Origin: [Leptolyngbya] sp. PCC 7376
Lineage (GTDB): Bacteria > Cyanobacteriota > Cyanobacteriia > Cyanobacteriales > MRBY01
Length of the DNA stretch: 64,000 bases
Direction of reading: 5' to 3'
NCBI RefSeq assembly: GCF_000316605.1
Contig: NC_019683.1
Span: forward strand, 2,340,036 to 2,404,035
Position numbers and translations under genes: made by a program. Numbering within the stretch: position 1 is the first letter of the stretch; each line of letters begins with the position of its first letter. Positions 529 to 25,560 of this stretch are shown here, one piece after another. The notes below the pieces were generated by a model. The model saw only the letters and a program-made list of their open reading frames with translations, made no database searches and was not told the DNA's origin.

Positions 529-548
529 GAATTTTTTTTGCACTCAAA

Positions 549-562
549 GTTGTATATACAAC
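549..562. promoter_or_regulatory. Candidate MarR operator 2 (perfect palindrome)
   Basis: GTTGTATATACAAC is a perfect 14-bp inverted repeat in the 52-bp gap between marR and the oxidoreductase gene. It differs by one base from the site at 44-57. Pairing of the same palindrome before regulator and neighbour is typical of a MarR regulon. That MarR binds here is inferred. Confidence 0.65.
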
Positions 563-580
563 ATAAAATCACGGGGAATT

Positions 581-1684: not shown

Positions 1685-1783
1685 CAATCTGTCTGAAACT
1701 CCGTATCTCGGCGATCGCTGTGACAGTAAAAGAAGTATTTTCCAACATTAATTTTTTAATCTTTATTCAATGAGGTCATACCT

Positions 1784-2269
1784 ATGGATACGCTCACGAT
1801 TTTTGGTCTTCAATTCATCTTGAGCCTGATGGTTTTTAGCTTGCTCGCTAAGTGGTATCTCTTACCTCGATTGGCTCAATATTCAACGCCACAGGCACTC
1901 CTGCTACTCCTCATTCCCCATACCTTGCGCCATCTTGGTTTGGTTTTCTTGGTGCCAGGGTTAGTTGTGCAGCCGTTGCCCAGTAGTTTTGCCAATGCAG
2001 CTGCTTATGGTGATTTAATCAGTGGGTTACTCGCGTTGTTGGCGATGGTTGCGTTGCGTTCCCGTTGGGCGATCGCCCTAGGTTTGGTCTGGATATTTAA
2101 TATTGTCGGCACGGTAGATCTCTTAAATGCGTTGAGAAAAGTTGAGGTCGTTCCATATTTGGGGACAACTTGGTATATCCCAACTTTTGTAGTGCCAATT
2201 CTTTTGGTCACCCATGTCATGATTTTTGCTCAGGTATTTAAGACACGCAAGCAAGCACACTCCCATTAA
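1784..2269 (+). CDS. Hypothetical four-helix membrane protein
   Basis: 161 residues with about four hydrophobic helices (roughly residues 5-27, 38-62, 75-110 and 130-155) and a short basic, His-containing tail. I do not recognise a named family. It follows the oxidoreductase on the same strand after a 99-bp gap that contains a HIP1 site, so it may belong to the MarR-controlled group but could have its own promoter. No catalytic motif is visible. It is the last intact gene before the insertion-sequence cluster. Confidence 0.6.
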   Translation: MDTLTIFGLQFILSLMVFSLLAKWYLLPRLAQYSTPQALLLLLIPHTLRHLGLVFLVPGLVVQPLPSSFANAAAYGDLISGLLALLAMVALRSRWAIALGLVWIFNIVGTVDLLNALRKVEVVPYLGTTWYIPTFVVPILLVTHVMIFAQVFKTRKQAHSH

Positions 2270-2399
2270 CCTAAAATCGACACTCTAGCAGATGGACGGC
2301 GATCGCCTTATCTCATTTTTTGATTTTGTTGAATTAAAACGAATCCATATTTTGAAGTCATCTCTAGCAAACTTGTGCGGTAATATTCCACGTAAATTA

Positions 2400-3362
2400 A
2401 CGTGAGTTCTGGATAAGGAAAGAAAAGAAGAAAGCTCATATCGTGGCAGTTGAAACCAATCCACAGCTTTCTCCTATGCTTAGTTTAGACGCTTTATTTT
2501 GTGACGTTGACGATTTCTGCCAGGTCTTTGAACCTCAGTGGCATCAAGAATTACTGAGCTCTTGCAAAAGGTATCGTCACCGTTCTAGAAGCCTAAGCTT
2601 GAGTGAGGTGATGACGATACTGATTGCATTTCATCAATCTCACTATCGTAATTTCAAGCATTTCTATCTCCTGATGGTGCGACACTATTGGCAAAAAGCC
2701 TTTCCCAAAGCAGTGAGTTATCAACGCTTTGTGGCATGGATGCCCTCCAGCTTAGTGCCTCTATGTGCCTATTTATGTGACTGTTATGGAGATTGCACAG
2801 GCATTAGTTTCATTGATGCCACCAGTATCAAAGTTTGTCACAATCGCCGTATTGCCCAACATCGAGTCTTTAACGGTCATGCCGCTAGAGGCAAAACCTC
2901 TGTTGGGTGGTTCTTTGGCTTCAAACTCCATCTGGTCATTAATGACCGAGGAGAATTACTTCATGTACAAATCACTCCTGGCAATATTGATGACAGAAAG
3001 CCTGTCGTTGAACTGTTACGGAATTTATTCGGCAAAGTTTTTGGAGATAAGGGCTATGTGTCCCAAGCTCTGGCACAACATCTCAAAGAAGAACATGATG
3101 TGATGTTAATTGCTAAACCTCGCCGCAATATGGAGAATCGCTTGATGCTCTGGCAAGATACATTCATCGCTCGTAAACGAGCTTTGATTGAAACCGTGAT
3201 TGACCAACTGAAGAACATTTCTCAGATTGAGCACTCTAGACATCGTAGTCCAGCGAACTTCTGTGTCAATTTGCTGTGTGGCTTGATTGCCTATTGTCAT
3301 CAGCCTAAGAAACCTTCTCTCCAACTCAATTAGAGTCTCATTTCCTTATCCAGAACTCACGT
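2400..3362 (+). mobile_element. IS982-family element, copy 1 (left unit of tandem pair)
   Basis: A complete 963-bp element. Its ends are inverted repeats starting ACGTGAGTTCTGGATAAGGA at the left, with the exact complement at the right end 3343-3362. It carries one transposase gene. The 7 bases before it (TAAATTA, 2393-2399) are repeated not after this copy but after copy 2 (4276-4282), so copies 1 and 2 together occupy a single target-site duplication. The element has no HIP1 site, unlike the chromosome around it. Confidence 0.88.
2443..3333 (+). CDS. IS982-family transposase (copy 1)
   Basis: 296 residues, GTG start, full length for the family. Recognised by the N-terminal [13 protein letters not shown] segment and the catalytic core: first Asp in [11 protein letters not shown], second in [11 protein letters not shown], and the Glu in [16 protein letters not shown]982 transposases are DDE enzymes that cut at the 18-25 bp terminal repeats. 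The gene is intact and both of its own ends are present, so it may be active. It has clear amino-acid differences from the copies at 3389-4246 and 7111-8001, so the three are related isoforms and not recent duplicates. Confidence 0.92.
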
Positions 3363-4275
3363 TAATAAGCAATCCACCACTTTCTCCCATGACCAGTCTA
3401 GAACCTTTGTTTTGTTCCATTGATGATTTCTGCCAAGTCTTTGAACCTCAATGGCAACAACAATTACTGGCCTCGAAACAACGGCGGCGACGTCGCCCTA
3501 GAAGCCTTAGTCTCAGCGAGATAATGACGATATTGATTGCATTTCATCAATCTCACTATCGTAACTTCAAGTATTTCTATCTCATCAATGTGCGTCATCA
3601 CTGGCGAAGAGCTTTTCCCAGAGCCGTGAGTGACCAACGTTTTGTGGAGTGGATGCCTTCGACGTTAGTACCTCTATGTGTCTACCTACAGCACTGTTAT
3701 GGTCAATGCACAGGTATTAGTTTCATTGATGCCACCAGTATCAAGGTTTGTCACAATCGCCGCATCTCTCAACATCGCGTTTTTGAAGGTCATGCCGCTC
3801 GAGGTAAAACCTCTGTGGGTTGGTTCTTTGGTTTCAAACTACATCTGGTTATCAATGACCATGGCGAATTACTCAATGTTAAAATCACGCCTGGCAACAC
3901 CAATGATAGAAAGCCGGTAGTGGAGCTTTTGAAAGGGTTATCGGGAAAAGTCTTTGCCGATAAAGGTTACGTCTCTCAAGCTCTGGCACAGTATTTACAA
4001 GAAGAATATGATGTGAGGCTTCTAGCTAAGCCTCGTCGCAATATGAAGAATCACCTGATGCTTTGGCGTGACAAAGTGCTGGCTCGTAAGCGAGCTTTAA
4101 TTGAGACCGTCATTGACCAACTGAAGAATATTTCTCAGATTGAACACTCTCGCCATCGCAGTCCAGCGAACTTTTGTGTCAACTTGCTTTGCGGTCTCAT
4201 TGCCTACTGTCATCAGCCTAAGAAACCCTCTCTTCAGCTTGATTAGAACCTCATTTCCTTATCCCGAACTCACGT
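3363..4275 (+). mobile_element. IS982-family element, copy 2, missing its left end
   Basis: This unit begins directly at the right terminus of copy 1. About 50 bp including its own left inverted repeat and first codons are absent: homology with copy 1 resumes at AATCCAC (3370 onward). Its right inverted repeat (4256-4275) is present with one mismatch, and the 7 bases after it (TAAATTA, 4276-4282) match those before copy 1. Only the outer ends of the pair are flanked by the duplication, so the two units now form one composite of about 1.9 kb. Confidence 0.82.
3389..4246 (+). pseudogene. IS982-family transposase (copy 2), N-terminally truncated
   Basis: The frame encodes the complete DDE core ([33 protein letters not shown]), but the native start and about 10 codons are lost with the left end of the element. 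The first plausible start left is the ATG at 3389, giving about 285 residues against 296 for the sister copies. An apparent longer frame from 3287 reads through the 3' end of copy 1 and is not native. It might still be translated and act in trans on the shared ends. I class it as truncated because its promoter and start region are gone. Confidence 0.7.
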
Positions 4276-4367
4276 TAAATTAGGTGATGATTTTGCGCTT
4301 GCGGCATAACTCATCGTTAGCAGTCTTCAATGGCTCATACTCCATCAAGTATTCACAGACAGTAAAG

Positions 4368-4769
4368 ATGAAAGAAATTTCTGGAATTAATCACGTAGGC
4401 ATTCGGGTGGCCGACCTAGAAAAGGCGAGAAAATTTTACGAACAATTGGGCTTTGAATTTCTCATAGGACCCATTGGCCCGGAGCCTGTCGCAATTATGG
4501 AACATCCTTCGGGAGTAAATATCAACCTGATACTAAATGCAGACTCCGGTATTGCGGAAAACATACTGATGGATGTGCCCGAAAAACATCCCGGTTACAC
4601 CCACATCGCTTTAGATGTAACTGATATCGGAGCAGTTGAAATAGCCATAAAAGATTTAGGAATTGAGATTACAGAGAGGCCAATAACTTTACCCGATGGG
4701 GATGTAATGTTTTTTATCCGCGATCAAGATAGGAACGTGATCGAGTTTCATCAAAATTCAGGCTCATGA
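4368..4769 (+). CDS. VOC / glyoxalase-fold protein
   Basis: 133 residues from the ATG at 4368; an upstream in-frame ATG (4284) lies right at the IS982 target duplication and adds non-conserved sequence. The single vicinal-oxygen-chelate domain is clear: INHVGIRVADLEKARKFYEQLGF at the start, THIALDV in the middle and NVIEFHQ at the end, giving the usual His/Glu metal positions. The family includes glyoxalase I, dioxygenases and antibiotic-binding proteins, so the reaction cannot be assigned. It sits between IS982 and a DUF1499-like gene, and its original upstream context may have been lost to the insertion. Confidence 0.8.
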   Translation: MKEISGINHVGIRVADLEKARKFYEQLGFEFLIGPIGPEPVAIMEHPSGVNINLILNADSGIAENILMDVPEKHPGYTHIALDVTDIGAVEIAIKDLGIEITERPITLPDGDVMFFIRDQDRNVIEFHQNSGS

Positions 4770-4827
4770 CCACCAACGGTTGGAGTTTCTGGGTCTCATG
4801 GAGGATCACTACAGAGGAAAATGAGAC

Positions 4828-5523
4828 ATGCCATATTTCACTTTAGTACCGTACTTAATTATCCTCGCCGGAGTTGGGTTGAGTTATGTCGGTCTGCTGC
4901 CAGCGATGACAGGCTGGGTACTGTCTGCACTGGGTGTTCTATCCGGCCTCGGATTCGCGGTCACTGTGATGTTCTCCAGACAGGTGGATTTGTGGTGGGC
5001 TGCAGCGATCGCCGTCTTACCTTCAATGGTTGCAATCCCTATGGTCATGAACGATCTGCGTTACCCACGCATTAATGACGTGGCGACGAATGTTGAGGCT
5101 CCTCCGACGTTTGTTGCAGCGCTTCAGATTGCTCCAAATACGAGGCGTGACATGTCATTTCCTGAGAAGAACGGGCCAATTATACATAAGGCCTATCCAA
5201 ACATTCACCCGCTCATTTTGGATGAACCATTAGAACATGTCTTCCAACGTATCGAAACCCTCGCGAGGATTCAACCTGGCTGGGTAATCACTCGCCATGA
5301 CGCGATCACCTTTACTTTGGAGGGTGAAGCCACGACATCATTTTTCCGGTTCATTGATGATTTCATCATCCACGTTTCAGATTACGAAGGAAAGGCTCGG
5401 ATCGACATACGCTCAAAATCGCGCGACGGACTGGTTGATGCAGGCGCAAACGCAAAACGAATTCAGACGTTTTTTAAACAACTTGATAACTCCAAGGCGG
5501 AGGCAATGCATGTCGATAGTTAA
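4828..5523 (+). CDS. DUF1499-like membrane-anchored protein
   Basis: 231 residues. The first about 75 residues hold two or three hydrophobic helices (residues 5-25, 30-50, 55-72). The remainder is a soluble domain of the DUF1499 type, with its ending pattern DYEGKARIDIRSKSRDGLVDAGANAKRIQTFF. Function is unknown for this family. The last 14 bases overlap the start of the next gene (ATG at 5510), so the two were co-translated before an IS1 element landed immediately after this stop codon. The HIP1 site at about 5003 shows it is native DNA inside the IS cluster. Confidence 0.75.
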   Translation: MPYFTLVPYLIILAGVGLSYVGLLPAMTGWVLSALGVLSGLGFAVTVMFSRQVDLWWAAAIAVLPSMVAIPMVMNDLRYPRINDVATNVEAPPTFVAALQIAPNTRRDMSFPEKNGPIIHKAYPNIHPLILDEPLEHVFQRIETLARIQPGWVITRHDAITFTLEGEATTSFFRFIDDFIIHVSDYEGKARIDIRSKSRDGLVDAGANAKRIQTFFKQLDNSKAEAMHVDS

Positions 5524-5529
5524 GAAAAG

Positions 5530-6324
5530 GAGAGTTTCAAGAGAGTAATGTTAAACGCCAATTGCGCAGTAGCTCAATACTTCCATTCACTCTAAATTTC
5601 GCAAACAGTGCCATGCTCAAGTCCACCATGTGTTTTGATTTAGAGACGACCTTCGTCCTGCGATGAAACCGAGCAAACCAATGGCGATTGTCTGAGTTGT
5701 TTCTCTCAATTGCTATTGTCTCTTTCTTGCTAATGACATGAAAAGCATCTGGGTGATTCTCTAATAGCTGTTGATAGGGTTTCCAATTATCGGTGCAATA
5801 GACAGTGATTTGCCATTGCGAGAACCGCTCTAGTAAATGACCTAAAGTTCGACTATCACGACTTCCCAATTCCCAGTCAATGAGTCGCCCAGTATTACGG
5901 TCATATGCTTTCCAGACCCAAAGTTTGTTTTTTTCTCTTGGATAAAATGCCATAGCTCATCTAGCTCCACCACGACAGCAGACTCAGGAGTGGGCTTTTC
6001 ATAATTGGCTTCACCGAAATCTCTTACCCAATTGAGCACTGATTGAGCTGATACACCGAGAATCTTGGCTGTCGCATTCATGGACATACCACTCATATAC
6101 ATCAATACAGCTTCTAATTTCATCCAGAGAGGCTTGCCCCGCTCTTTAGAAAAGCTTGTAAATTGATAATTGCACTGCTTACACTTAAATCGTTGACGAT
6201 TTTTAGCGAATCCACTTTTGATGATGTCTTGAGCATTACATTGGGGACAGTGAATTGTCATAGCGAGACTTCCAAGGAAACGACTCACTCCATTTTGCTA
6301 TAGCATTACCTACTTGAAACTCTC
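5530..6324 (-). mobile_element. IS1-family element with 8-bp target duplication
   Basis: 795 bp. The ends are inverted repeats sharing GAGAGTTTCAAG and then, with mismatches, TAATG (5530-5550 and the complement at 6304-6324). AAGAAAAG flanks it on both sides (5522-5529 and 6325-6332), an 8-bp duplication as usual for IS1. It carries the two overlapping frames of an IS1 transposase joined by an A7C slippery run. Both ends and the duplication are undamaged, so the insertion looks recent. Confidence 0.9.
5537..6261 (-). CDS. IS1-family transposase made by -1 frameshift (InsA/InsB')
   Basis: The upstream frame starts at ATG 6261 after a GGAAG ribosome site. It encodes the zinc finger (CPQCNAQ, CKQC) and a helix-turn-helix up to VVELDELWHFIQEKK. 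The downstream frame, ending at 5537, continues with LWVWKAYDR, the second Asp in TDNWKPY and the Glu in IERNNSDN. The two join by a -1 shift at an A7C run (5928-5934 on the plus strand is T7), the class of slippery site used by IS1. The fused product is about 241 residues, close to the 232 of classical IS1. A simple frameshift mutation is possible but less likely given the site. Confidence 0.82.
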
Positions 6325-7081
6325 AAGAAAAGAACAGCATTTGAGGACGCTAGACAACAGATCACGTCACTTCCACGCCCCGTCCAAAATTGGATGCTGT
6401 GGTTGAACGTCGTTTTCCTAGCTGGTTTGTTGTTCATTTCCAATCATGGTGCTGTCCGCTGGGCGATCGCCGCATACTTGGTCTGTTTTCCAGTCGCGGT
6501 CCCTTTTTATCTCTACACCAGAGATATCGCGATGTCGGGTGTGCCTCACATTTTGTTTTGGACTCCGCTCTTGAGCTATAGCAGTGGTCAAAAGAGTTAA
6601 GACGTAGCAGAACGAAGAGTCATATCCATCGCATCTCTGAGAGATGGGCAGTGTTTGAGTTGCTTTCGAATGCGGCTTTTCAACCAAGACCAGCACCGCT
6701 CAATCTTGTTCAAATCTGGTGAATAAGGAGGTAGATACCATAGCTCACACTTCGCCTGTGCCAGAATGTCTGCGATTCTTCCCCCCTTATGAAAAGTAGC
6801 ATTATCCAAAATTAAGACCTGATGAGGTTTTAATTCTGGCAGTAAACAAGTCTCTGGCCACAGTTCAAACACATTACGGTTACAGGAGCCTTCTACTGTA
6901 AAGGGAGCAAACAGTTTGCCTTGACTCCATGCCGCAATCATATTGACTCTGCCGCGACGATTTCCGGACTTGAGGTCGTAGAGCCGTTCACCTTCGGGAC
7001 TATAGCCATAATCGTAGTTTCCATCTCGCTCATCCAATTCCCGACTCATCGCAATAAATAATTTGTTCTGGTCTTAAGTTA

Positions 7082-8044
7082 ACGTGAGTTCTGGATAAGG
7101 AATGATAGGTCTAATCAAGCTGTAAAGAAGGTTTTTTGGGTTGATGGCAGTAAGCAATCAGCCCACACAGCAAGTTCACACAAAAGTTTGTGGGACTGCG
7201 ATGTCGGGAATGTTCAATCTGTGAGATGTTCTTCAGTTGGTCAATAACTGTCTCAATCAAAGCCCGCTTACGAGCAAAAAGTTTATTTTGATAAACCATC
7301 AAATGATGCTTCATATTTCGACGAGGTTTAGCCATTAGGGTCACCTCATGTTCCTCTTGAAGATGCTGGGCTAAAGATTGTGAGACATAGCCTTTATCGG
7401 CAAAGACTTTACCCCATAAGTCTTGCCATAACTCCACTATAGGTTGGCGGTCATCGGTATTTCCGGGCGTCACTTGGACGTTGAGTAATTCTCCTCGCTC
7501 ATTGATGACCAGGTGTAGTTTGAAGCCGAAGAACCATCCCACCGAAGTCTTGCCCCTTGCCGCGCAACCTTCAAAAACACGGTGTTGAGAGATACGGCGA
7601 TTATGGCAAACCTTGATGCTGGTGGCATCAATGAAGCTAATACCAGTGTATTGTCCGAAGCATCGTCGCAGATATGTACAGAGAGGAATCAAGCTCGAAA
7701 GTATCCATGTCACAAAGCGTTGATAGCTCACAGCTAGAGGAAACTCTTGTTGCCAATCGCATTTCACCTTGATGAGATAGAAATGCTTGAAATTTCGATA
7801 GTGAGATTGATGGAAAGCAATGAGAATAGTCATCACCTCACTCAGACTGAGGCTTCTCTGACGGCGACGGTATTTTTTGCCAGAGCTGAGTAACGCTTGA
7901 TGCCATAAGGGTTCAAAGACTTGGCAGAAATCATCAACATGGCAAAACAGAGCCTCTAGACTGGACATGGGAGAAAGCCGTGGATTCGTTACAACTTCCA
8001 CGATATGGGCTTTCTCCTTTTCTTTCCTTATCCAGAACTCACGT
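7082..8044 (-). mobile_element. IS982-family element, copy 3, nested in IS630
   Basis: 963 bp, the same length as copy 1 and with the same terminal repeats (ACGTGAGTTCTGG... at 7082 and its complement ending at 8044). It is flanked by a 7-bp target duplication TAAGTTA (7075-7081 and 8045-8051). Together with TAAATTA at the tandem pair this suggests a preferred target like TAARTTA. It lies inside the IS630 transposase gene, so it arrived after IS630. Confidence 0.92.
7111..8001 (-). CDS. IS982-family transposase (copy 3)
   Basis: 296 residues with a GTG start, as in copy 1. The DDE core is complete: [22 protein letters not shown] and [14 protein letters not shown]. The conserved C-terminal block [16 protein letters not shown] is present. 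The element has both ends and a perfect target duplication, so it is structurally competent to move. Differences in the central region (for example the [19 protein letters not shown] segment) separate it from the other two copies. Confidence 0.92.
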   Translation of the reverse strand: MEVVTNPRLSPMSSLEALFCHVDDFCQVFEPLWHQALLSSGKKYRRRQRSLSLSEVMTILIAFHQSHYRNFKHFYLIKVKCDWQQEFPLAVSYQRFVTWILSSLIPLCTYLRRCFGQYTGISFIDATSIKVCHNRRISQHRVFEGCAARGKTSVGWFFGFKLHLVINERGELLNVQVTPGNTDDRQPIVELWQDLWGKVFADKGYVSQSLAQHLQEEHEVTLMAKPRRNMKHHLMVYQNKLFARKRALIETVIDQLKNISQIEHSRHRSPTNFCVNLLCGLIAYCHQPKKPSLQLD

Positions 8045-8648
8045 TAAGTTAGCAAGTTGTTGTCTGAATGCCTGTCGCTTCTGTTCATCCCTTTCGCGAT
8101 AGCCATAGGTCTTTTTTTCGAGTAAAACCTATCTTTTTCAGCATTCTGGAGATAGTGCGGCGGCTCACATCTTCTGGCCATAGTTCTGCCATCTCTGCCT
8201 GAGTTTTATCCGGGTGCTGTTGCACAAAGTTTTTGAATGCTGCTAAGTCTATGATTTTGTGACCATAGCCCTTTTGATAACCTGTTTTGGCGCTGTAGCT
8301 CCCTGTATGCCTTAGTCGCTGTATCCAGAGAGAAAGGCTGCTGCGGCTGATATTAAACATGTCACATACATCTTTTTTGGGAATGCCTCGCTCCACTGCT
8401 GCTAGAGCTTTACGGCGTAGGTCATCACTATAAGCAGCTGGCATTTCTTTACTTCACACAACATTCCCATACTACTGCCTAAGCCATCTGGCCATTGCTA
8501 TACCTTCCAGTTAAGGCAGCTGAAGACCTCAGTTTTTAGCCTCTTGAACTTATATGGAGTTTGGACAGTTCTGCTTTTACTCACCATTGCGATTTCTGTG
8601 GCTTTGGACATAAGGGCAGTGCTGAAATACTTCTCATCCAACACCTGA

Positions 8649-8984
8649 GATGGTGCGAGGAAATCTACTCCGACAACCAGATTCGGTATATCGAACAAAT
8701 TCAATACACGAATTTCCAAACTTTAATGTGGAATGCAAGTATTTTTCACTCTCTCCCAATGGCACTGGTATTTTTGATATGGGCGATCGCCTTTTCAATT
8801 GAAGAGCAATACAGCTAAGGAGGCATTGGGTGTCACTATGCAACCGTTGTGATAGGATGCCACCTGCATCAAATAATACTGCTACACCCATGAGATAGCG
8901 ACAAGTTACATACGTTAGCAATCAAAGTGGTGGAACAAGATCAGTCAATAATGAGATTGACATAATTTCTCAAGGGATAAGACT
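8649..8984. other. Gap between split gene and ectC
   Basis: 336 bp with no convincing gene. An 85-codon plus-strand frame (8561-8818) and a 95-codon minus-strand frame overlap here, but neither resembles a known protein and the first runs out of frame over the tail of the split gene. A HIP1 site at about 8783 marks native DNA. AAGGGA about 7 bases before the ectC start at 8985 is its ribosome site. Confidence 0.5.
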
Positions 8985-9365
8985 ATGCTCGTACGTGATT
9001 TGCAACAAATGATTGGGACTGAACGTGATGTCGCGTGGGGAAATGGTCAAAGCCGTCGATTTTTACTGGGAAATGATGGGATGGGGTATAGCCTGACAGA
9101 TACTGTAATTGATGCAGGCAGCGAATCCCTTTTGCAATATAACAATCATCTTGAAACCTGCTATTGCATTGAGGGTGAAGGTGAAGTTGAGAGTATGGAT
9201 GGAACAATCTATCCCATTAAACCTGGAACAATGTATGCCTTAGATAAGCATGACCAACATTATTTACGAGCCAAAACAACTATGCGTCTAGTTTGTGTCT
9301 TTGCTCCAGCTTTGAAGGGGGATGAAGCTCATGACCTGAACAGAGAGGATGGAAGTAGCTACTAG
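8985..9365 (+). CDS. ectC: Ectoine synthase, orphan
   Basis: 126 residues, near the usual 125-135. EctC closes N-gamma-acetyl-diaminobutyrate to the compatible solute ectoine in the cytoplasm. It is a cupin: the hallmark block NHLETCYCIEGEGEVE is followed by IYPIKPGTMYALDKHDQHYLRA. Glu57, Tyr84 and His92 line up with the iron ligands known for the family (Glu57, Tyr85 and His93 in the Paenibacillus enzyme). No ectA, ectB, ectD or ask_ect is nearby; upstream is IS debris and downstream, converging, is an ABC permease. Orphan ectC genes are known in some bacteria and may use an imported precursor, hydrolyse ectoine derivatives or have drifted to another substrate. Confidence 0.88.
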   Translation: MLVRDLQQMIGTERDVAWGNGQSRRFLLGNDGMGYSLTDTVIDAGSESLLQYNNHLETCYCIEGEGEVESMDGTIYPIKPGTMYALDKHDQHYLRAKTTMRLVCVFAPALKGDEAHDLNREDGSSY

Positions 9366-9454
9366 CAAACATGCACTATAAAATGATCTTTGTATAGTGA
9401 TTATTTTCGTATGAATCTTCGTTCGATCGCCTCAATCAATTATTACTTTTGATC

Positions 9455-9481
9455 TGTGATGACTCTGAATGAATCATCACA
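9455..9481. terminator. Palindrome between converging ectC and permease genes
   Basis: A perfect 8-bp stem TGTGATGA / TCATCACA with an 11-base loop. A weaker 7-bp stem (CACTATA / TATAGTG, 9374-9380 and 9393-9399) followed by a T-rich stretch lies nearer to ectC. Both sit in a convergent gap, so they probably end transcription of ectC and the permease gene. No long T-run follows, so this is tentative. Confidence 0.4.
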
Positions 9482-9503
9482 GTAATCACTCACAAAATTC
9501 AAC

Positions 9504-11873
9504 TTATTCTCGTGTTTTCAAGACGGCGATTAGATCGATGTTTTGTAGTTGGCGGTAAATAATTACGCTGGAAATGAAAGCCGCGATAATCACAGTAAAT
9601 GCGGTCAAACTGTAGGCAGAGGGAGTAATTACGAGGGGTAAGCGATAAAGTTCTGAGTCGTAGGCTTTCATTAACAATGCCGACAACCCAAAGCCTAAAG
9701 CTAACCCCACTGGAATAGCGGTGATCGCCAAGATGGTTTGTTCTCCGAGCAGGATGATCGCGATTTCGTTTTGGGTAAAGCCCATAATCCGGAGGCTGGC
9801 TAACTCTCGACCTCTTTCGGACAAGGCAATTCGGGCGGAATTGTAGACGACGCTAAAGGTAATAATGCAGGCAAAAATGACGATAATCCCCGTCATAATC
9901 TGGAGACTTTCACCGCTAATTTCTTCAAAGCTTTCGAGTAATGCCTCCCGGAAAGAAATACCTTCAATGGCTGGGGTTTGTTTAAGTTCTTGGTAGAGCT
10001 GATCTTTTGCATTGGCATCAATGGTTGCATAGGCTCCCGAAATGGTTTGGCCTTCTCCCATCAATCGATTGAGGGCATTGAGATCCATATAAACGGACAG
10101 TCCAATTAGTTCATCCACTAACCCGGTGACCTGGACTTGGCGTTTTGGTCGTGCCCCTTCTAATACTTCGAGATTGAGGCGATCGCCCGGTTGGACATGG
10201 AGAATTTCGGCGAGTTTGGTGGTGATGACAACGCCTTCTGGTGGCAATGGTACTCGATACTTATTGCGATCAATCAGTTGTCGTAAGTTGCCGTCGGGTT
10301 GCAATCCCGTAATGCCCAGCCGATATTGATAATGTTCGTGGCGCAATCGCACGGGCACAGAACGAAACACTTCTGTTTGCAGCATTCCCGGCAAATGGCG
10401 CAAATTATAACGACTGCGATAGGACAATGGTTGATTGAAAATGAGGGTCACATCTTCCCGCTGAATGGTTTGGAATTGCACCTCCATCAACTCCTGCATC
10501 GATTCGTATAAGGTAAAGCCCGTCAACAAAATCGCAGCGGCCATCGCAATCCCCAAAATCGAAAATCCGGCGCGGACGGGACGACGTTCGAGGTTCCGTA
10601 GAATGATGCGTCCTGCGGGTGAGAAAAACTGTTGTAATCCCAATCTTTCTAATAGGGTTTGGCGAAAAGTGGCGGGTGGTTCTGGTCGCATTCCTTGGGC
10701 TGGCGGCAAAATTACGGCTTGGCGCACAGACATTAATCCCCCAACAAAAGCGGCTCCTCCACTCACCAACAACGCAGACATTACCAAGGGAAATCCGGCT
10801 TCGTATCGCAAAATCGGAAAGTGAAAAAACTCGGTATAAAGTTGCGTCAAACCTTTCCCCAGCCATAACCCCAAAGCAACCCCGAGCATTGCCCCGGCGC
10901 TAAACACCACCAACATAAATTTCAGGTAATGCCAACCCACCTGAAAATCGCTATAGCCAAAGGCTTTGAGGACAGAGATTTGTTGCCGTTGGGTGGCGAT
11001 GAGGCGCGACAACAATGCTTGCAATAAAAACGCAGCGATCGCCAAAAAGATAGTGGGCAAAAAGGTCGCCGAAACTTCTAAACTTTTAATTTCATCATCA
11101 ATAATGCGGTGGGAAAACTGGTCATGTCGGGCATAGGCTCCCAAGCCGCCATAGCGTTCGAGCAAATCATCTAACTGGGCAATGACAGCGGTCTCATTCG
11201 CCCTCGGCATCAAGGTCAGCACCACGCTATTAAACGCACCATCGAGATCAAAAGCTTTTGCCAGCGCCTCCTGATTCATCCAAATAATGCCAAACCGTTT
11301 GTCGTCAGGGTAAAGATTACCGCCCGACACCGCGTAGATATATTCCGGCGTGAGTGCAATGCCCGTCACCCGCAGCTCCTGCCAACGACCATTGAGAATC
11401 GCACCGAGGTGATCGCCCACTTTGAGATTATTCGCGGTGGCAAAGGCTTCACTGATCAGGAGTTCTTCGGGACGTTGGGGGTCAGGATAATTCCCCGGAC
11501 TGCGCAGAAATAAGTCATTGAGCATCCCATCTCGGATTTGTGGCAATGAAATCAGCCGTCCCGTCGCAGGTTCATCTAATCCCGGCACATCGAGGGTCAC
11601 CCCCACCACAATTCGCGTTTGGGCTTGATTAACGCCATCGATACCTGCAATCTGGCTTTGCAAACTTTTGGGAGCACGTTTCAGCTCGGCAAAAACCTCA
11701 GCAAATCGAAATTGTTCGTAATAGGCATTTTGGGTCAGTGTCAATGAGTTGTAGGCACTCATCATCAACACAAAACAAGCAATCCCACAGGCCACCACCA
11801 GGGCGATCGCCAGCAATTGTCCCCACTGCTGCCAAAGCTCCCGAAATAATTTGCGATCCAGTGGTGCAAGCAT
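9504..11873 (-). CDS. ABC exporter permease with two FtsX domains
   Basis: 789 residues. One N-terminal helix (about 15-40) is followed by a large extracytoplasmic region. The first FtsX core (about 270-400, with the LIATQRQQISVLKAFGYS coupling segment) contains three helices. A short linker, another anchor helix, a second extracytoplasmic region and a second FtsX core (about 660-785, ALSERGRELASLRIMGF) complete it. This is the fused double-FtsX type that works with a LolD/MacB-like ATPase and a HlyD-type adaptor. Those two partners lie about 4 kb upstream on the same strand (15999-18148), so the exporter operon appears to have been split by inserted DNA. The substrate is unknown. Confidence 0.82.
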   Translation of the reverse strand: MLAPLDRKLFRELWQQWGQLLAIALVVACGIACFVLMMSAYNSLTLTQNAYYEQFRFAEVFAELKRAPKSLQSQIAGIDGVNQAQTRIVVGVTLDVPGLDEPATGRLISLPQIRDGMLNDLFLRSPGNYPDPQRPEELLISEAFATANNLKVGDHLGAILNGRWQELRVTGIALTPEYIYAVSGGNLYPDDKRFGIIWMNQEALAKAFDLDGAFNSVVLTLMPRANETAVIAQLDDLLERYGGLGAYARHDQFSHRIIDDEIKSLEVSATFLPTIFLAIAAFLLQALLSRLIATQRQQISVLKAFGYSDFQVGWHYLKFMLVVFSAGAMLGVALGLWLGKGLTQLYTEFFHFPILRYEAGFPLVMSALLVSGGAAFVGGLMSVRQAVILPPAQGMRPEPPATFRQTLLERLGLQQFFSPAGRIILRNLERRPVRAGFSILGIAMAAAILLTGFTLYESMQELMEVQFQTIQREDVTLIFNQPLSYRSRYNLRHLPGMLQTEVFRSVPVRLRHEHYQYRLGITGLQPDGNLRQLIDRNKYRVPLPPEGVVITTKLAEILHVQPGDRLNLEVLEGARPKRQVQVTGLVDELIGLSVYMDLNALNRLMGEGQTISGAYATIDANAKDQLYQELKQTPAIEGISFREALLESFEEISGESLQIMTGIIVIFACIITFSVVYNSARIALSERGRELASLRIMGFTQNEIAIILLGEQTILAITAIPVGLALGFGLSALLMKAYDSELYRLPLVITPSAYSLTAFTVIIAAFISSVIIYRQLQNIDLIAVLKTRE

Positions 11874-12001
11874 CGATTATCATGCCAATTCTTTCCTCAA
11901 TGGTGGCATAAGAGATGGGAGGAGGATAGATTAATTGAGTAAATATCCTATTTTCTATAAGTAAAAATTTTCAACCGCATTTTAAATGAAGTTATAAGGC
12001 T

Positions 12002-12685
12002 CTAAAACTTCCCTTCATTATTAAGATCATGGCGTATTTTCTCGATGGTTCGAGCAATATTTTTCTCCCCTATAAATATTCCCCAATTCCATTCCTTTGG
12101 TTTGCCTATAGAACCTGCCCATAATCTTCTAATATATTGAGATTTAATTGTTTCAGTAGCGACATATACAAATTTTTCTTCGAAGATATTCTCATAGAAA
12201 ATATAGGAAATATTAGCATTAGAAAACTTGCTTAATTCAAAGATATCGCTTATCTGTATTTCAGGGAAATCGATTTGAAGATGAGCTCGAAAATCAGTTT
12301 TACAAGGAATAGCATGTATGTGTGCATGATCAATACATCCTCCTGATAAGCTACAAGTCGACATTCCATGCTCAAAAAAAGCAACTTGCCCATATATTTT
12401 TTTGATCGAGTCCCCAATGATTTGCTTTACAGCAATGAATTCAGACATCAGCTTTTTGGGCAATCCTCCGACTGAAAGATAGTGATCTTTCGGAATTATA
12501 AGTACATATCCTTCTGTTAGAGCGCCAAAACCAGCGATAGCAAGACAATTATCGGTCTCTAATATTACATCTGAAAATTGTCCATATTCCTGCCCTATTT
12601 TAGACCAAGCGATTGCGTGAGTATGCAAAACATACTGGGCACAGAATGTACATTTATGAGATGTATAATGATTTGCTTTATTCAA
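12002..12685 (-). CDS. HIT-superfamily nucleotide hydrolase/transferase-like protein
   Basis: 227 residues. An N-terminal CTFC pair (Cys12, Cys15) resembles a zinc site. ALTEGYVLIIPKDHY and FFEHG are typical of HIT folds, and the triad DHAHIHAIP places His120, His122 and His124 as the HxHxH active site. The C-terminal YIRRLWAGSIGKPKEWNWG matches the tail seen in HIT proteins that act on dinucleoside polyphosphates. HIT enzymes use the middle His as nucleophile on nucleoside phosphates; the substrate here is not known. It is the last gene of an AT-rich three-gene operon, 13 bases after the membrane protein gene, and carries no HIP1 site. Confidence 0.72.
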   Translation of the reverse strand: MNKANHYTSHKCTFCAQYVLHTHAIAWSKIGQEYGQFSDVILETDNCLAIAGFGALTEGYVLIIPKDHYLSVGGLPKKLMSEFIAVKQIIGDSIKKIYGQVAFFEHGMSTCSLSGGCIDHAHIHAIPCKTDFRAHLQIDFPEIQISDIFELSKFSNANISYIFYENIFEEKFVYVATETIKSQYIRRLWAGSIGKPKEWNWGIFIGEKNIARTIEKIRHDLNNEGKF

Positions 12686-12698
12686 CTCAAACAGACCT

Positions 12699-13715
12699 CT
12701 AGCAGTTATTTTTTAATATGAAATTTGGAGATCTGTCTTGATAAGAGTCATAAAATCTAGCACCATTCTTATTCCATTCAAAAATGGTGAACTCATACTT
12801 GTATTCCTTAAAAATACTTTCAAAATTTTTTACACAATTATTAAACAGATCACTGCTTTTTGGGATTTGGTATAGAGGGCTTAAATTCGCTTTTTTTTCA
12901 AAGTCATAAATAGGACCCATTAAAAGAATTTCATTTTGCTGCTTTTCGCTCGAATCCTTATTCTCCGCCAAAGCTTTTTTGATATAAGTTATTGCTGAAT
13001 CAAATGGAGTATAAGAAAGAACTATCCTTAATTCATTTTCTGTGTCCCATAGTGCTGTATTTTCATATTGTTTTGCCAAATCAGATAACAAGTTAATATT
13101 ACACTCAATATCAGTTGAGCATGGCTGACTATTATCCTGAGTTCCCTCTTTATAATTTCGTATTTTTACAAATTCTGATTTTGGATGTGCCATTAGTATT
13201 TGGACATTACTATTATTGCCAATCTTAAGCATTTTTATCAAAGGATGTGCTTCTTGTTCTTCATATAAACGCCTTATCAAAGTGCCATTTGCAATGCCAG
13301 ATATTTTGACTTGATTTGCATTTTCAAAGTAATTATTATAATCAACGTCTACTTCATCTCTTCTTGAACTTATTAACGATAAACTTTTGTTTTGTACAAC
13401 ATCAAGGATCTTGGTTGTATCTTGCTTGTGATTTTCAAACTCCCTATCACGATATTCAATGAATTTATTTTTAGTTTCTGAAATTTCATTTAAACATTCT
13501 TGCATTATTTGATTTGCTCTTTTTAATTCATCTCGTTCAAATAATTTTTGCAGATAGTAAGATATTAGCCACCCTGCCAAACCTACTACTAAGCCTACAT
13601 ATATTTCTTCTGGTAGATTTAATATAGGTAACAAGAGGATGATCGTTACCACTATTACAACCATACTCCACATGATATTTTTGAAGATTTTTTCAACTTC
13701 ATTGTATCTTGACAT
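12699..13715 (-). CDS. Membrane-anchored protein with coiled coil and PLD-like sensor domain
   Basis: 338 residues. Two helices (about 14-32 and 37-56) make a membrane hairpin, followed by a charged, probably coiled-coil segment (57-110). A soluble domain from about residue 135 (VKISGIANGTLIRRLYEEQ ... NVQILMAHPKS) resembles the phospholipase-D-like fold found in signalling and defence proteins. No intact HKD motif is seen, so it is more likely a ligand sensor than a lipase. It lies 43 bases downstream of the DUF89-like gene and 13 bases upstream of the HIT-like gene, which implies one transcript. The family assignment of the C-terminal domain is tentative. Confidence 0.55.
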   Translation of the reverse strand: MSRYNEVEKIFKNIMWSMVVIVVTIILLLPILNLPEEIYVGLVVGLAGWLISYYLQKLFERDELKRANQIMQECLNEISETKNKFIEYRDREFENHKQDTTKILDVVQNKSLSLISSRRDEVDVDYNNYFENANQVKISGIANGTLIRRLYEEQEAHPLIKMLKIGNNSNVQILMAHPKSEFVKIRNYKEGTQDNSQPCSTDIECNINLLSDLAKQYENTALWDTENELRIVLSYTPFDSAITYIKKALAENKDSSEKQQNEILLMGPIYDFEKKANLSPLYQIPKSSDLFNNCVKNFESIFKEYKYEFTIFEWNKNGARFYDSYQDRSPNFILKNNC

Positions 13716-13758
13716 TTCATCCTCTCCTTTGGCTTATCAATAATGCTACTTTACTTTT

Positions 13759-15081
13759 TCATGTAAAAACATCAGATAAGGTAACTATTTTTGAATTGTC
13801 TTGGTCATGAATATATCCTTCTTGATCTTTTGGAATAAAGGAGAATACTGCATCAAAATTCTTTAACCCTGTATATAAACGAGATACATTCCCATAAACG
13901 ACAAAGGCGTGATAAGTATCCTTACTTTTTATTTGGCATGTTTCAAAAAAATTAAGTCCTTTAACATAGACGAAATCAGAGTTATCTATGACCTTCCAAG
14001 CATCTTGATTTAAAAGATTTGTTTGAAAAGAAATGAGTGGACACAAAGTCTCAAATACAAATAATTGTGTGTTGATTTTTTCTGCAAGTCCTGAAAAATG
14101 TTTGTTAGCCAAGACTTTTGTTAACATCAATGATGAAAAATTAATGCTGACTTGGGCTCTGTTTAGCAAGAGATTGACTCTAAAGTGCTTGCTCTGTTTC
14201 AAGAGTTGCTGTATCCAAAGCAGATCAAAAACTGTTTCTGAAGTATCGTCCAAAATAGCACACATAGATATACTGGCACCTTGACTTTCAGCAGATTGAA
14301 TTCGTTTAATCAAGTGTTCTCTATGATCTATTGCTAACGGAGTATCTATATACAAATTTGTTCGTTCTTCAACTACCATTTTGTTAGTGTATTCGGATAT
14401 TTTATTTCCAACTAAAAAACTCTCAGAGAATGTAACTCCACGACCTAAAGCCAGTGACATTTGTTGAATTACAGAAGTTGAAGTATAAGCATCAATTGAG
14501 TTCAGTGTTTGTTCTAAAGAGCGATTGACTAAAACTGTTTCCTGAGACTCACACTTGTAAATTTTTCTGCCCACTAAATTCTCTATAACATTAGAAACCA
14601 GATACATATTCAAGGTGTTACTAACATGCTTCATGATGAAGCCATTGTGTACTCTATAGATTTGACTTAACCTTAAACAAGCTTCGTCAAGAAGATCATC
14701 AATGTTATTCGCAGCTATGATATTTTGATTTGCCAAACTACTAAAAATTCGATAGAAAGCATTAGTCATATATGTCAAGTTTATTAATAAGTCACTTGGC
14801 GAGCACTCTTTCCAAATAAAAGGAGGATGATATATATTTTGACCAAAAGGAATGCTAAATCCAGATTGAAACTGCAGGCAAGATTTCTTAATAGAGAAAC
14901 CTGCAAGTTTGATCGTCAAATCTTGATTTCTATTGCTAGGAATGCTGTCCAGATTTCCAAAGATTTCAATACCTCTGTAAGGATTATGATAACTCTTTCC
15001 TTTTACTGATAAGGAATTTTGTCTTAGTTTATTAATGTCAACATCAATTTCATGGTCTATCCAAAATTCGATTCTGCTCAT
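13759..15081 (-). CDS. Divergent DUF89 / ARMT1-like protein
   Basis: 440 residues. The C-terminal part (about 270-410) has the order of motifs seen in the DUF89 damage-control phosphatase fold: CAILDDTSETVFDLL (Asp278, Asp279 in place of the usual Asp-Asn-x-Gly-Glu), then strand-helix units, then DNSDFVYVKGLNFFET (equivalent to the SKGxxNFE loop). The Asp usually found in the PxxNDVT loop appears replaced (QVSINFSS), so activity may be altered. The N-terminal about 250 residues match nothing I know. DUF89 enzymes remove phosphate from damaged metabolites. It is the first gene of the AT-rich operon; no convincing promoter was found upstream. Confidence 0.58.
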   Translation of the reverse strand: MSRIEFWIDHEIDVDINKLRQNSLSVKGKSYHNPYRGIEIFGNLDSIPSNRNQDLTIKLAGFSIKKSCLQFQSGFSIPFGQNIYHPPFIWKECSPSDLLINLTYMTNAFYRIFSSLANQNIIAANNIDDLLDEACLRLSQIYRVHNGFIMKHVSNTLNMYLVSNVIENLVGRKIYKCESQETVLVNRSLEQTLNSIDAYTSTSVIQQMSLALGRGVTFSESFLVGNKISEYTNKMVVEERTNLYIDTPLAIDHREHLIKRIQSAESQGASISMCAILDDTSETVFDLLWIQQLLKQSKHFRVNLLLNRAQVSINFSSLMLTKVLANKHFSGLAEKINTQLFVFETLCPLISFQTNLLNQDAWKVIDNSDFVYVKGLNFFETCQIKSKDTYHAFVVYGNVSRLYTGLKNFDAVFSFIPKDQEGYIHDQDNSKIVTLSDVFT

Positions 15082-15410
15082 TTTCAGATCTTCTTAAGTT
15101 TTGCTGATAGAGATTTGTGATGGCAATATAATCTAGTCAATAAATAGCCATTATCTTTTTTGATTATACGATTCGATTAGTTCCTTCTACAGTAGGAAAT
15201 GTTGGTCTTGGCTGAAAAGCCGTATTCGCAAGCAACTCAAACAGAATCTTTCTCTTAGAGCAGCTATGGATATGACCCTAAAAGCAACACCTTCTTAATC
15301 TTCTTGGTCATTGCGATAGTAATAGTACCCAAGGTGATTGCCCTAGACATTTGATGTATTGACTTAAGCAATAAACTACAATCGAACCAGAACGCAGAGA
15401 GTAGAGCTAT
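15082..15410. other. Divergent gap between the DUF89-like operon and Uma2 gene
   Basis: 329 bp, AT-rich, without HIP1 sites. It must hold the promoters of both divergent units. A minus-strand 63-codon frame extends into Uma2 and looks like a chance frame. I see no hairpin with a T-run and no clear attachment repeat. Confidence 0.4.
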
Positions 15411-15959
15411 ATGACTCTGGCAACCTACAGATGGACAGTGAAAAACTATCATCAAGCGATTGATGCAGGTCTATTTGCTGATGAGGCCGTTGAACTATTA
15501 CGGGGAAATTTAGTTGTTATGTCGCCAGAGCGTGAACCCCATGCTTATTACACTCGAAGTATTGGTCAGTATTTACAGAGACTACTAGGTCAGCGTGCTT
15601 TAGTTAGTGAAGCTCATCCCATCACATTGCCGAATAACTCTGAGCCAGAACCTGATGTGGCGATCGCCCAGCCTTTGGGACGAGAGTATTTGGAGCATCA
15701 CCCCTATCCCGGAAATATTTTTTGGCTCATTGAATGTTCTCAGGCGACCCTCACGAAAGATTTGACTGAAAAGAAAGACCTCTATGCCGAAGCAGGTATT
15801 AAGGAATATTGGGTGATTGATTTGCAGCATCACCAGTTAATCGTCTTTAAGGATCTCCAAAACGGTTCATATACCACCGAGAAAACGCTGACGGCGGGTA
15901 TTATTTCTCCTCTCAGTTTTCCAGATTTACCAGTATCTGTTGAGAAGCTTCTCCAATAA
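15411..15959 (+). CDS. Uma2-family (DUF820) putative endonuclease
   Basis: 182 residues, a normal length for this family, which is greatly expanded in cyanobacteria. The fold is a PD-(D/E)XK-like nuclease: LLRGNLVVMSPE near the start, PEPDVAIAQ (the conserved Pro-Asp), FWLIECSQATLTKDLTEKKDLYAEAGIKEYWVID as the E-x-S ... K core. Cellular roles are unproven; many copies are scattered and mobile. It is the only plus-strand gene between the separated parts of the exporter operon. A HIP1 site at about 15660 shows it is better adapted to this genome than the AT-rich operon next to it. Confidence 0.82.
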   Translation: MTLATYRWTVKNYHQAIDAGLFADEAVELLRGNLVVMSPEREPHAYYTRSIGQYLQRLLGQRALVSEAHPITLPNNSEPEPDVAIAQPLGREYLEHHPYPGNIFWLIECSQATLTKDLTEKKDLYAEAGIKEYWVIDLQHHQLIVFKDLQNGSYTTEKTLTAGIISPLSFPDLPVSVEKLLQ

Positions 15960-15998
15960 AAAAGCTTTGGTAAACATAGCTGAGATTGATGTAATAAA

Positions 15999-16757
15999 CT
16001 ACCATTCCAACTCGGCAGGTGATTTTTTCACGGTATTCTCTTCGATCTCCACAATCTCACCACTGCGCATGTGAATGACCCGATCTGCCATCGCCGCAAT
16101 ACCAGCATTGTGAGTGATCACGGCAACAGTCGTCCCAAATTCTCGGTTCACATGGTTGAGCACTTCCAGCACTCGTTTGCCTGTCTGGAAATCTAACGCT
16201 CCGGTCGGTTCATCACAAAATAAAACCTCTGGACGTTTGGCGATCGCCCGTGCAATGGCCACCCGCTGTTGTTCCCCTCCCGATAGCTGTGCGGGGAAAT
16301 GATCAAAACGTTCCTCCAATCCCACCAATGCCAACGCATCTTTGGGTTTCATGGAAGGACTCGCTAAATCTGTCACCAGAGCAACATTTTCTGCTGCCGT
16401 CAAACTAGGAATCAGATTATAAAACTGAAAAACAAAACCTACATGTTCCCGGCGATATTTTGTGAGTTGGGATTCATTTACTGCTGTGAGATTTCGCCCT
16501 CGAAAATACACATTTCCTGTCGTTGGAATATCCAATCCACCTAATATATTGAGCAAAGTTGATTTGCCGCTCCCGGATGCCCCCAGCAGCACTACAAATT
16601 CCCCTTCATACAGATTTAAATTAACAGTTTTTAATGCCTGAACTTGAACCTCACCCATCTGATAAGACTTTGAGACCTGTTCTGCCGAAAACAGCACAAT
16701 TTTTTCATGCTGAATTTCTGAATTAGAGGATATCGGAGAGCTAACCATAGCGATCAA
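15999..16757 (-). CDS. ABC exporter ATPase (DevA/LolD/MacB type)
   Basis: 252 residues. Walker [13 protein letters not shown], signature [16 protein letters not shown], Walker [13 protein letters not shown] and the H-loop ITHN are complete. The [17 protein letters not shown] pattern belongs to the MacB/LolD/DevA branch, which partners FtsX-type permeases to push substrates from the periplasmic side. It follows the HlyD adaptor gene by 41 bases on the same strand, and its permease is probably 9504-11873. The ATG at 16748 is an alternative start three codons in. Confidence 0.9.
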
Positions 16758-24321: not shown

Positions 24322-25560
24322 TCAATTTGCTGACATGCTAACCGCAATCTCAACTGATTTCTGCAATTTACTTAACTTCTGTTGATCCTTAGGTAGATCT
24401 AGGAAGTCATTAATATCGCTAAGGCTTTCAAATTTACCAGCAACCCTAAGATGAAACATGACAAAACGACAAAAATAAAATTGTAGAAATCTTGCATATT
24501 GCTTGGCTGATTCGCTTTCTTCACCAGAATGAATACTTTGATTGCGATACTCACGAATAGATTCTAAAAGCTGTCTATGATATTCCCTTTCCTCAAAAAC
24601 AAATGAAACTCGGCGAATCAGAGCATCATAGTCTGCATAATTTCCGGTATTAGTTAATTGTTCCAAAGCTCCCCAGAGTTTCATAACTGCAATTGTAGGA
24701 TCTGGTTCATCTAGTGCTCTGACATATCGAATTAAAGCATCCTTCAATCGGCATTGGTACTTCGGTTCCAACTGTTTTATTTTCGCCCAGATCTTTGTCG
24801 TATTGTCATTAAATAAGTCAGATTCACTGGGTTTAAATAACTTTGCTTCAACAAAATTTGGCTCATACCAAATATACATTTGAGAAGCTTCACCATCACT
24901 TCCATGAATTGTGTGAACATGACCTAAACGAATTTGGTTGACTGGCTCTCTCGTTGTTTCTGGAGATTGAAATACTGCATAATGATTTAATAGCCATATC
25001 GAGCGTTGCAGATCTAATGCTCGCATTGCATGATGAAACGCCTGCTCTTCTGATTTTGCTTGAGTCTCAACTATTACTTTCCGGTACTCCTGAGGTGTCT
25101 TATCTGAAATGTGAGGCAATGCCCTCAATGCACGACCACTATCTTGAAAGCAGATTGGATATTCTCCTTCCAAAATCTTAATAGAACATTTTTCAATATT
25201 GAATATTCCAGGTAAATTCACCTCGCCGAGAGAAATACTAGTAAGTACATAAAAAGAGACAAGAGGTGTGGCAAGCTTTTTCCTGATAAGAAGCTTCAAT
25301 TCAGCAAGAAATCTCCCTGAGTCAATAACTTCCCTTTTTCTTAAAACTGCTTCAATTGCATCTCCTATTGTAGATATTTTCTCTGAATCATTGATGTCAG
25401 AAGGAAAATCCAACATATTTTTCAGTGCATAAGTTATCGGAATGATCTCCAAGCCATGCCACGAGATTTTTCCATCTTCTTTGACAGTTTTATCTGTCTC
25501 CTCTATCTTCTCAAAAATAACTTCTGGCTTAAATCTTTTACCTTTCCATTTCACTGCCAT
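24322..25560 (-). CDS. HEPN-domain protein, ApeA-like (possible defence RNase)
   Basis: 412 residues. The C-terminal region (about 280-385) looks like an all-helical HEPN domain with a complete R-x4-H motif in EYRNQSIHSGEE (Arg339, His344), the active site of HEPN RNases. The N-terminal region (1-270) is not one I recognise by name; its layout recalls ApeA-type proteins, where a sensor precedes the HEPN domain. ApeA is a known single-gene anti-phage protein. The gene is AT-rich and free of HIP1 sites, unlike its neighbours on both sides, which points to transfer. It has no partner antitoxin next to it. Confidence 0.62.
   Translation of the reverse strand: MAVKWKGKRFKPEVIFEKIEETDKTVKEDGKISWHGLEIIPITYALKNMLDFPSDINDSEKISTIGDAIEAVLRKREVIDSGRFLAELKLLIRKKLATPLVSFYVLTSISLGEVNLPGIFNIEKCSIKILEGEYPICFQDSGRALRALPHISDKTPQEYRKVIVETQAKSEEQAFHHAMRALDLQRSIWLLNHYAVFQSPETTREPVNQIRLGHVHTIHGSDGEASQMYIWYEPNFVEAKLFKPSESDLFNDNTTKIWAKIKQLEPKYQCRLKDALIRYVRALDEPDPTIAVMKLWGALEQLTNTGNYADYDALIRRVSFVFEEREYHRQLLESIREYRNQSIHSGEESESAKQYARFLQFYFCRFVMFHLRVAGKFESLSDINDFLDLPKDQQKLSKLQKSVEIAVSMSAN

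Follow-up and report, generated by a model that had tools for sequence, protein, structure and literature searches.

A low-GC operon pairing a HIT-family gene with a divergent DUF89-fold gene in an ABC exporter locus of [Leptolyngbya] sp. PCC 7376: a possible conflict module

A 64,000-nucleotide (nt) stretch of the genome of the cyanobacterium [Leptolyngbya] sp. PCC 7376 (NC_019683.1, assembly GCF_000316605.1, positions 2,340,036 to 2,404,035), referred to here as the window and numbered from its own first letter, carries three minus-strand open reading frames (ORFs), running from 15081 down to 12002, that encode a divergent DUF89-fold protein, a membrane protein, and a HIT-family protein. We propose tentatively, at somewhat below an even chance, that they represent a rare mobile operon in which a HIT-DUF89 enzyme pair is combined with an effector-type gene that varies from host to host, probably operating as a conflict module based on nucleotide or sugar phosphates. 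A module of the conflict type appears likeliest because the pair is rare and mobile and because TIR genes occur at both of the other loci that were found.

RESULTS

Relatives of the DUF89-fold protein were sought in a seed scan of one genome per species across 84,980 species, which detects close relatives only; 14 stretches matched a seed, and two of these encode relatives of this protein, L002 from a Chloroflexi metagenome-assembled genome (MAG; 45% identity) and L003 from a Bryobacterales MAG (39 to 40%). Among cyanobacteria, the protein was confined to its own genome in two overlapping draws of 386 and 373 genomes, and in the phyla of L002 and L003 the DUF89-like protein was present in the source genome only, among 301 and among 297 genomes; no relative was found in the viral contigs, plasmid collection, or phages searched. 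By these searches the DUF89-fold protein is very rare and patchily distributed over three phyla.

A HIT gene of the same subfamily is linked to the DUF89 gene at all three loci (Table 1), and a TIR gene stands in the same run at two of the three, being absent from the window operon. The original prediction had looked for recurrence of all three genes together; this held for the HIT-DUF89 pair and failed for the membrane gene, which has no significant relative. The L002 run is flanked on the outside by transposase-like and integrase-like ORFs, recognized by eye. Both methyltransferases of L002 (within 4508-9279) are S-adenosylmethionine (SAM) methyltransferases with long N-terminal parts to which no family could be assigned; they match mad2 of MADS in PADLOC (E values of 7.9e-15 and 3.8e-13) within the methyltransferase part, and PADLOC models containing TIR domains match both TIR proteins within the TIR part only.

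The HIT subfamily was also encountered on plasmids, where eight records matched and six neighborhoods (L006 to L011) were examined. An annotated class V aminotransferase/cysteine desulfurase gene lies beside the HIT gene or one gene away in four of them (L006, L007, L008, and L009); a similar neighbor was recognized by eye in the unannotated record L010, and none was seen in L011. In the Streptomyces record L007, the HIT gene follows a Pfam DCD (dCTP-deaminase-like) gene, and a PRA-PH/MazG-like gene lies approximately 3 kb away. No DUF89 annotation is present around the HIT gene in the five annotated plasmid stretches. Since plasmid HIT genes occur without DUF89, the linked pair, and not the HIT gene alone, is by this comparison the mark of the system.

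The assignment of the HIT protein to its family is solid at the level of sequence profiles: Pfam HIT (PF01230) was matched with an E value of 1.6e-7 (32.3 bits versus a cutoff of 21.5), and the HAHIH triad, predicted as part of DHAHIHAIP, begins at residue 120. In these respects the protein resembles the wider family, scoring above the gathering threshold with a full HxHxH triad, but it falls into a subfamily of its own, distinguished by CxxC, by EHG, and by an extension of the C terminus in which Y, Q, R, and A are invariant. In the subfamily alignment, EHG, the triad, and C-terminal Y161, Q183, R186, and A190 are common to all eight proteins, and CxxC is found in six of the seven members whose start lies far enough upstream to judge. 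A weak resemblance to CwfJ/Cwf19-like HIT-like domains was also noted. The profile phrog_23000 covers residues 38 to 216 (E value of 5.3e-13), and despite this match no relative was found in the phages or viral contigs searched; at an E value of ≤1e-12 the HIT profile retrieved the protein's own genome alone among 194.

The motifs by which a divergent DUF89 protein had been recognized were located at residues 278 (DDTSE) and 374 (KGLNFFE, predicted as KGLNFFET) of the 440-residue product, and the fold itself was backed by two lines of evidence. Residues 237 to 383 match the NF040824 profile (E value of 1.5e-4), at 21.4 bits far below the cutoff of 440. A three-sequence alignment of the window, L002, and L003 proteins (A1, which includes one residue before the chosen L002 start) yielded an AlphaFold model with a predicted local distance difference test (pLDDT) score of 60.6 overall and ten-residue means of 64 to 91 over residues 261 to 370. 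When this model was compared with the Protein Data Bank (PDB) by Foldseek, ranks 1 to 20 had E values of ≤7.9e-4, and 13 of the 20 are titled DUF89, the best being 2g8l (E value of 7.6e-9); the other seven (chains of 1xfi, 7u1x, 7t7k, 7u1v, and 7t7n) we take to be DUF89 proteins also, and rank 21 is an unrelated structure (E value of 3.6e-3). Template modeling scores for ranks 1 to 20 were low (0.29 to 0.65), for a model of moderate confidence. Because the first 20 ranks are DUF89 structures, 13 by title and 7 by our own assignment, a DUF89 fold of the C-terminal half is well supported by the model; the 250 N-terminal residues fall outside that assignment.

The protein did not match PF01937 at an E value of ≤1 in the Pfam search, and a sequence search of solved structures with A1 gave no DUF89 match (the best match was unrelated, with an E value of 0.26). 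The viral fold library gave no match at an E value of ≤0.001. Of the 79 cyanobacterial genomes searched, 6 encode canonical PF01937 proteins, and the protein's own genome encodes none (E value of ≤0.001). When A1 was aligned by hhalign with six cyanobacterial DUF89 proteins, one of which (L022) was shortened by the choice of its first methionine, the probability was 0.3 to 0.4%, and the KG motif was consistent by eye in the local alignment. The metal ligands of DUF89 proteins are an Asp-Asn pair and a third Asp. As read by eye against the cyanobacterial proteins, the D-N pair becomes D278-D279, and the third ligand position is probably N314, whereas a low-probability profile alignment places S317, not N314, at that position. 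The residues listed in Table 1 are invariant in all three sequences of A1. The protein shares with the DUF89/ARMT1-like phosphatases (PF01937, NF040824) a predicted fold, the D..E and KG..N..E motifs in the same order (by eye), and a length near that of the solved yeast and human members, but differs in lacking a PF01937 match, in scoring far under the NF040824 cutoff, and in having D-D for D-N and N at the candidate third ligand.

The three genes are likely to form one operon, with intergenic gaps of 43 and 13 bp, and their coordinates, strands, and spacing agree with those originally predicted, as do the low GC content and lack of HIP1 that set the block apart from its flanks. The GC content is 32.5%, compared with 43.1% for the window, and the window's lowest-GC stretch of 3,080 bp, starting at 12121, overlaps the operon. 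There are 84 copies of the HIP1 sequence (GCGATCGC) in the window, versus 0.75 expected from shuffles, and the longest HIP1-free gap, 11803-15660, encloses the operon, which itself contains none. On its own this absence is modest evidence only, because approximately four sites would be expected in a block of 3,080 bp (Poisson P of approximately 0.018 for none). Promoter-like and terminator-like sites were no more frequent than chance would give (17 versus 18.5 and 3 versus 2.5, respectively).

More direct evidence of acquisition came from the surrounding exporter genes. In the window, a HlyD-type gene (Pfam) lies upstream of the ABC ATPase gene, which is separated from the permease gene by a segment containing a Uma2-family gene and the operon. 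In two congeners (L014 and L015, approximately 73% identity), the HlyD, ATPase, and permease genes are contiguous, with the ATPase stop codon 2 nt before the permease ATG; the ATPase adjoins the permease also in the more distant relatives L016 and L018, and in L017 the ATPase was not seen in the stretch examined, and HlyD is matched on the opposite side and strand. The permease (E value of ≤1e-100) was found in 6 of 30 related genomes, its own included, and in 2 of the 5 congeners searched, being absent from the other 3. Given contiguous exporter genes in two congeners against 4,125 bp here, the segment was therefore, on this comparison, gained after the split from these congeners, clean loss in both being less likely, and the operon block is to be regarded as horizontally acquired, a status that had been predicted as probable. 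A repeat scan found short two-copy families only and no duplication at the insert ends. The permease and ATPase genes on either side carry the arms of a 23-nt inverted pair that is imperfect (78%); each arm has a HIP1 site, and the pair was set aside as HIP1-driven chance. The Uma2 gene may have arrived as a separate event, because its GC content is host-like (44%) and it carries the HIP1 site at 15660; it is 65 to 69% alike, in part, to Uma2 genes of cyanobacterial plasmids, and its product matches the PADLOC candidate PDC-S03 (E value of 4.4e-18).

The middle gene had been described as encoding a membrane-anchored, PLD-like protein without the HKD motif. Two hydrophobic peaks, at residues 14 and 38 (19-residue means of 2.86 and 1.49, respectively), bear out the anchor, AlphaFold2 placed helices at 4 to 32, 36 to 59, and 63 to 108, the last being the long helix, and HxKx4D is indeed absent. 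The PLD-like fold could not be confirmed by any tool and stays a plausible reading by eye: the PLD profile is not among the protein's matches in the Pfam, NCBIfam, or solved-structure sequence searches, and the AlphaFold2 model is poor (pLDDT of 41 overall and approximately 30 for the C-terminal domain). Pfam matches were weak and below cutoff, NCBIfam gave none, and nothing below an E value of 0.1 was found among solved structures by sequence. In PADLOC, residues 18 to 81, over the helices, weakly match PDC-M40B (E value of 6.1e-5). Neither the protein nor its domain has a relative in plasmids, viral contigs, or 318 other cyanobacterial genomes (E value of ≤0.1).

The domain of the membrane protein aligns with residues 1 to 232 of the TIR protein of L003 (whole-protein BLASTP E value of 0.001, for a single pair), and none of 2,000 shuffles reached the alignment score of 60. 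The N-terminal part of the L003 TIR protein has no plasmid match. We treat this likeness as a lead only.

Table 1. Positions of the genes and segments discussed (numbered within each stretch)
Stretch	Feature	Position	Strand	Remarks
Window	DUF89-fold protein gene	13759..15081	-	440 amino acids (aa), ATG; divergent; D278, D279, E282, N314, K374, N377, E380 invariant in 3/3
Window	Membrane protein gene	12699..13715	-	338 aa, ATG; two N-terminal hydrophobic helices, long helix, domain of ~220 aa
Window	HIT protein gene	12002..12685	-	227 aa, TTG start; N-terminal CxxC, EHG, HxHxH, C-terminal extension
Window	FtsX/MacB-type ABC exporter permease gene	9504..11873	-	Host operon, downstream of insert; Pfam, synteny
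Window	ABC exporter ATPase gene	15999..16757	-	Host operon, upstream of insert; Pfam, synteny
Window	Inserted segment, 4,125 bp	11874..15998		ATPase stop to permease start; missing from both exporter-holding congeners
Window	Uma2-family gene	15411..15959	+	Pfam Uma2, E value of 2.6e-29; within 4,125-bp segment
L002	TIR-FGE gene	4508-5722		First gene of same-strand run
L002	Methyltransferase gene	5846-7165		Same strand as run
L002	Methyltransferase gene	7159-9279		Same strand as run
L002	HIT gene	9276-9932		Same strand; directly 5' of DUF89, ends 8 nt before its chosen start
L002	DUF89 gene	from 9941		Same strand; start chosen by us
L003	HIT gene	contig start to 541		Directly 5' of DUF89, ends 2 nt before its start
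L003	DUF89 gene	544-1962		Same strand as HIT
L003	TIR gene	1959-2963		Start overlapped by DUF89 stop
L006; L007; L008; L009; L010	Plasmid HIT genes	7944-8588; 7992-8618; 8010-8519; 7932-8558; 7977-8654		Lactococcus, Streptomyces, and Rhizobium plasmids

Elsewhere in the window, transposase genes (DDE_Tnp_1_3 twice, IS1, and DDE_3) lie at 2443-8001, approximately 4 to 9 kb from the insert, and an ectoine-synthase-like gene (8985-9365; Pfam E value of 2.5e-47) adjoins the exporter operon. A 412-aa ORF at 24322-25560 has no Pfam match at an E value of ≤1e-4, and a second AT-rich, HIP1-free stretch (47001-49000; GC content of 36 to 37%) contains a PMT_2-type membrane protein.

DISCUSSION

HIT enzymes act on nucleotides, and the known role of DUF89 enzymes is that of damage-control phosphatases. 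We suggest that the core of the operon would be a HIT-family nucleotide hydrolase or transferase together with a predicted divergent DUF89-fold phosphatase, and that these two would make or clear a phosphorylated small molecule derived from a nucleotide or a sugar. The partner gene would be exchangeable, encoding the two-helix membrane protein in the window and TIR-domain proteins in L002 and L003, and the partner, of either type, may act on the cell once the balance of the small molecule is upset, in the manner of a conflict or defense system. Such an arrangement would recall Thoeris, CBASS, and other systems with TIR or membrane effectors, whose architecture likewise links an effector-type gene to nucleotide-handling enzymes on mobile, patchily distributed elements; it differs from them in that the window operon has no TIR gene and its four genes fit none of their PADLOC models. 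Ten other window genes (among the 65 ORFs of at least 120 aa listed) were unmatched by PADLOC at an E value of ≤1e-4. No open-access full-text paper combining DUF89 with a HIT domain, with or without TIR, or ARMT1 with conflict systems was found, subscription papers being outside the scope, and this negative result carries no more weight than the searches behind it because the wider set on DUF89 and operons was only partly examined. The term DUF89 appears in neither PMC9503650 nor PMC7159879, and the match in PMC2701414 is to DUF891, which is unrelated.

A number of observations weigh against a conflict module. The loci are few, three in all, two of them being MAG contigs and one of these only 11 kb long; the L003 TIR domain looks cut short, with 76 of 122 model positions matched, and the L002 TIR gene is two methyltransferase genes away from the pair. 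The HIT subfamily also occurs without a DUF89 protein of the window type, the matches of the TIR proteins and of mad2 in PADLOC are to common domains, and the DUF89 and HIT proteins themselves were unmatched there at an E value of ≤1. The catalytic activity of the DUF89-fold protein is not certain, because its metal motif is altered. The proposed exchange of partners is weakened as well: genome-wide searches between the membrane-protein domain and the L003 TIR protein gave no match in either direction at an E value of ≤10. In a comparison with 205 ORFs drawn from eight sources, including its own, an L002 methyltransferase protein scored 63, slightly above the 60 of the TIR protein, and an unrelated window ORF scored 54. 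The former likeness, to a 439-aa protein, was rejected, since the match falls within the methyltransferase region and its score was reached by 3 of 1,000 shuffles.

A bolder form of the proposal, which we consider doubtful, is that of a mobile immune system, as yet undescribed, whose HIT and DUF89-fold enzymes would control a phosphorylated nucleotide signal. An interchangeable effector would read this signal, the same sensor domain being fused in the cyanobacterium to a membrane anchor and in Bryobacterales to a TIR domain. A serious rival, although less probable than the reading we favor, is a pair devoted to metabolite damage control or nucleotide salvage, clearing unwanted phosphorylated metabolites beside membrane and TIR genes that would be incidental; the action of HIT enzymes on nucleotides and the proximity of the subfamily elsewhere to dCTP-deaminase-like, PRA-PH/MazG-like, and PRPP-synthetase-like genes would suit such a role, but the extremely sparse and mobile distribution across three phyla and the TIR genes at both of the other loci argue against it. 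We give still less weight to a module that would synthesize a modified nucleotide or another small product, in which the enzymes would tailor the product and the membrane and methyltransferase genes would belong to the pathway. The two SAM methyltransferases and FGE domain of the L002 run and the aminotransferase/desulfurase genes near plasmid HIT genes (four of six neighborhoods, with a fifth by eye) point in that direction, but the window operon consists of the pair and a membrane protein only, and the short L003 contig has no recognized biosynthetic neighbors. Least probable is a functional HIT-DUF89 pair with the membrane gene as an unrelated passenger: no significant relative of that gene accompanies the pair elsewhere, but in the window it lies between the two on the same strand, with short gaps and an equally low GC content.

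Should the conflict module that we tentatively favor prove to be correct, a mobile, divergent DUF89 protein with HIT and TIR or membrane partners would bring the DUF89 fold into bacterial conflict and would imply a new signal molecule.
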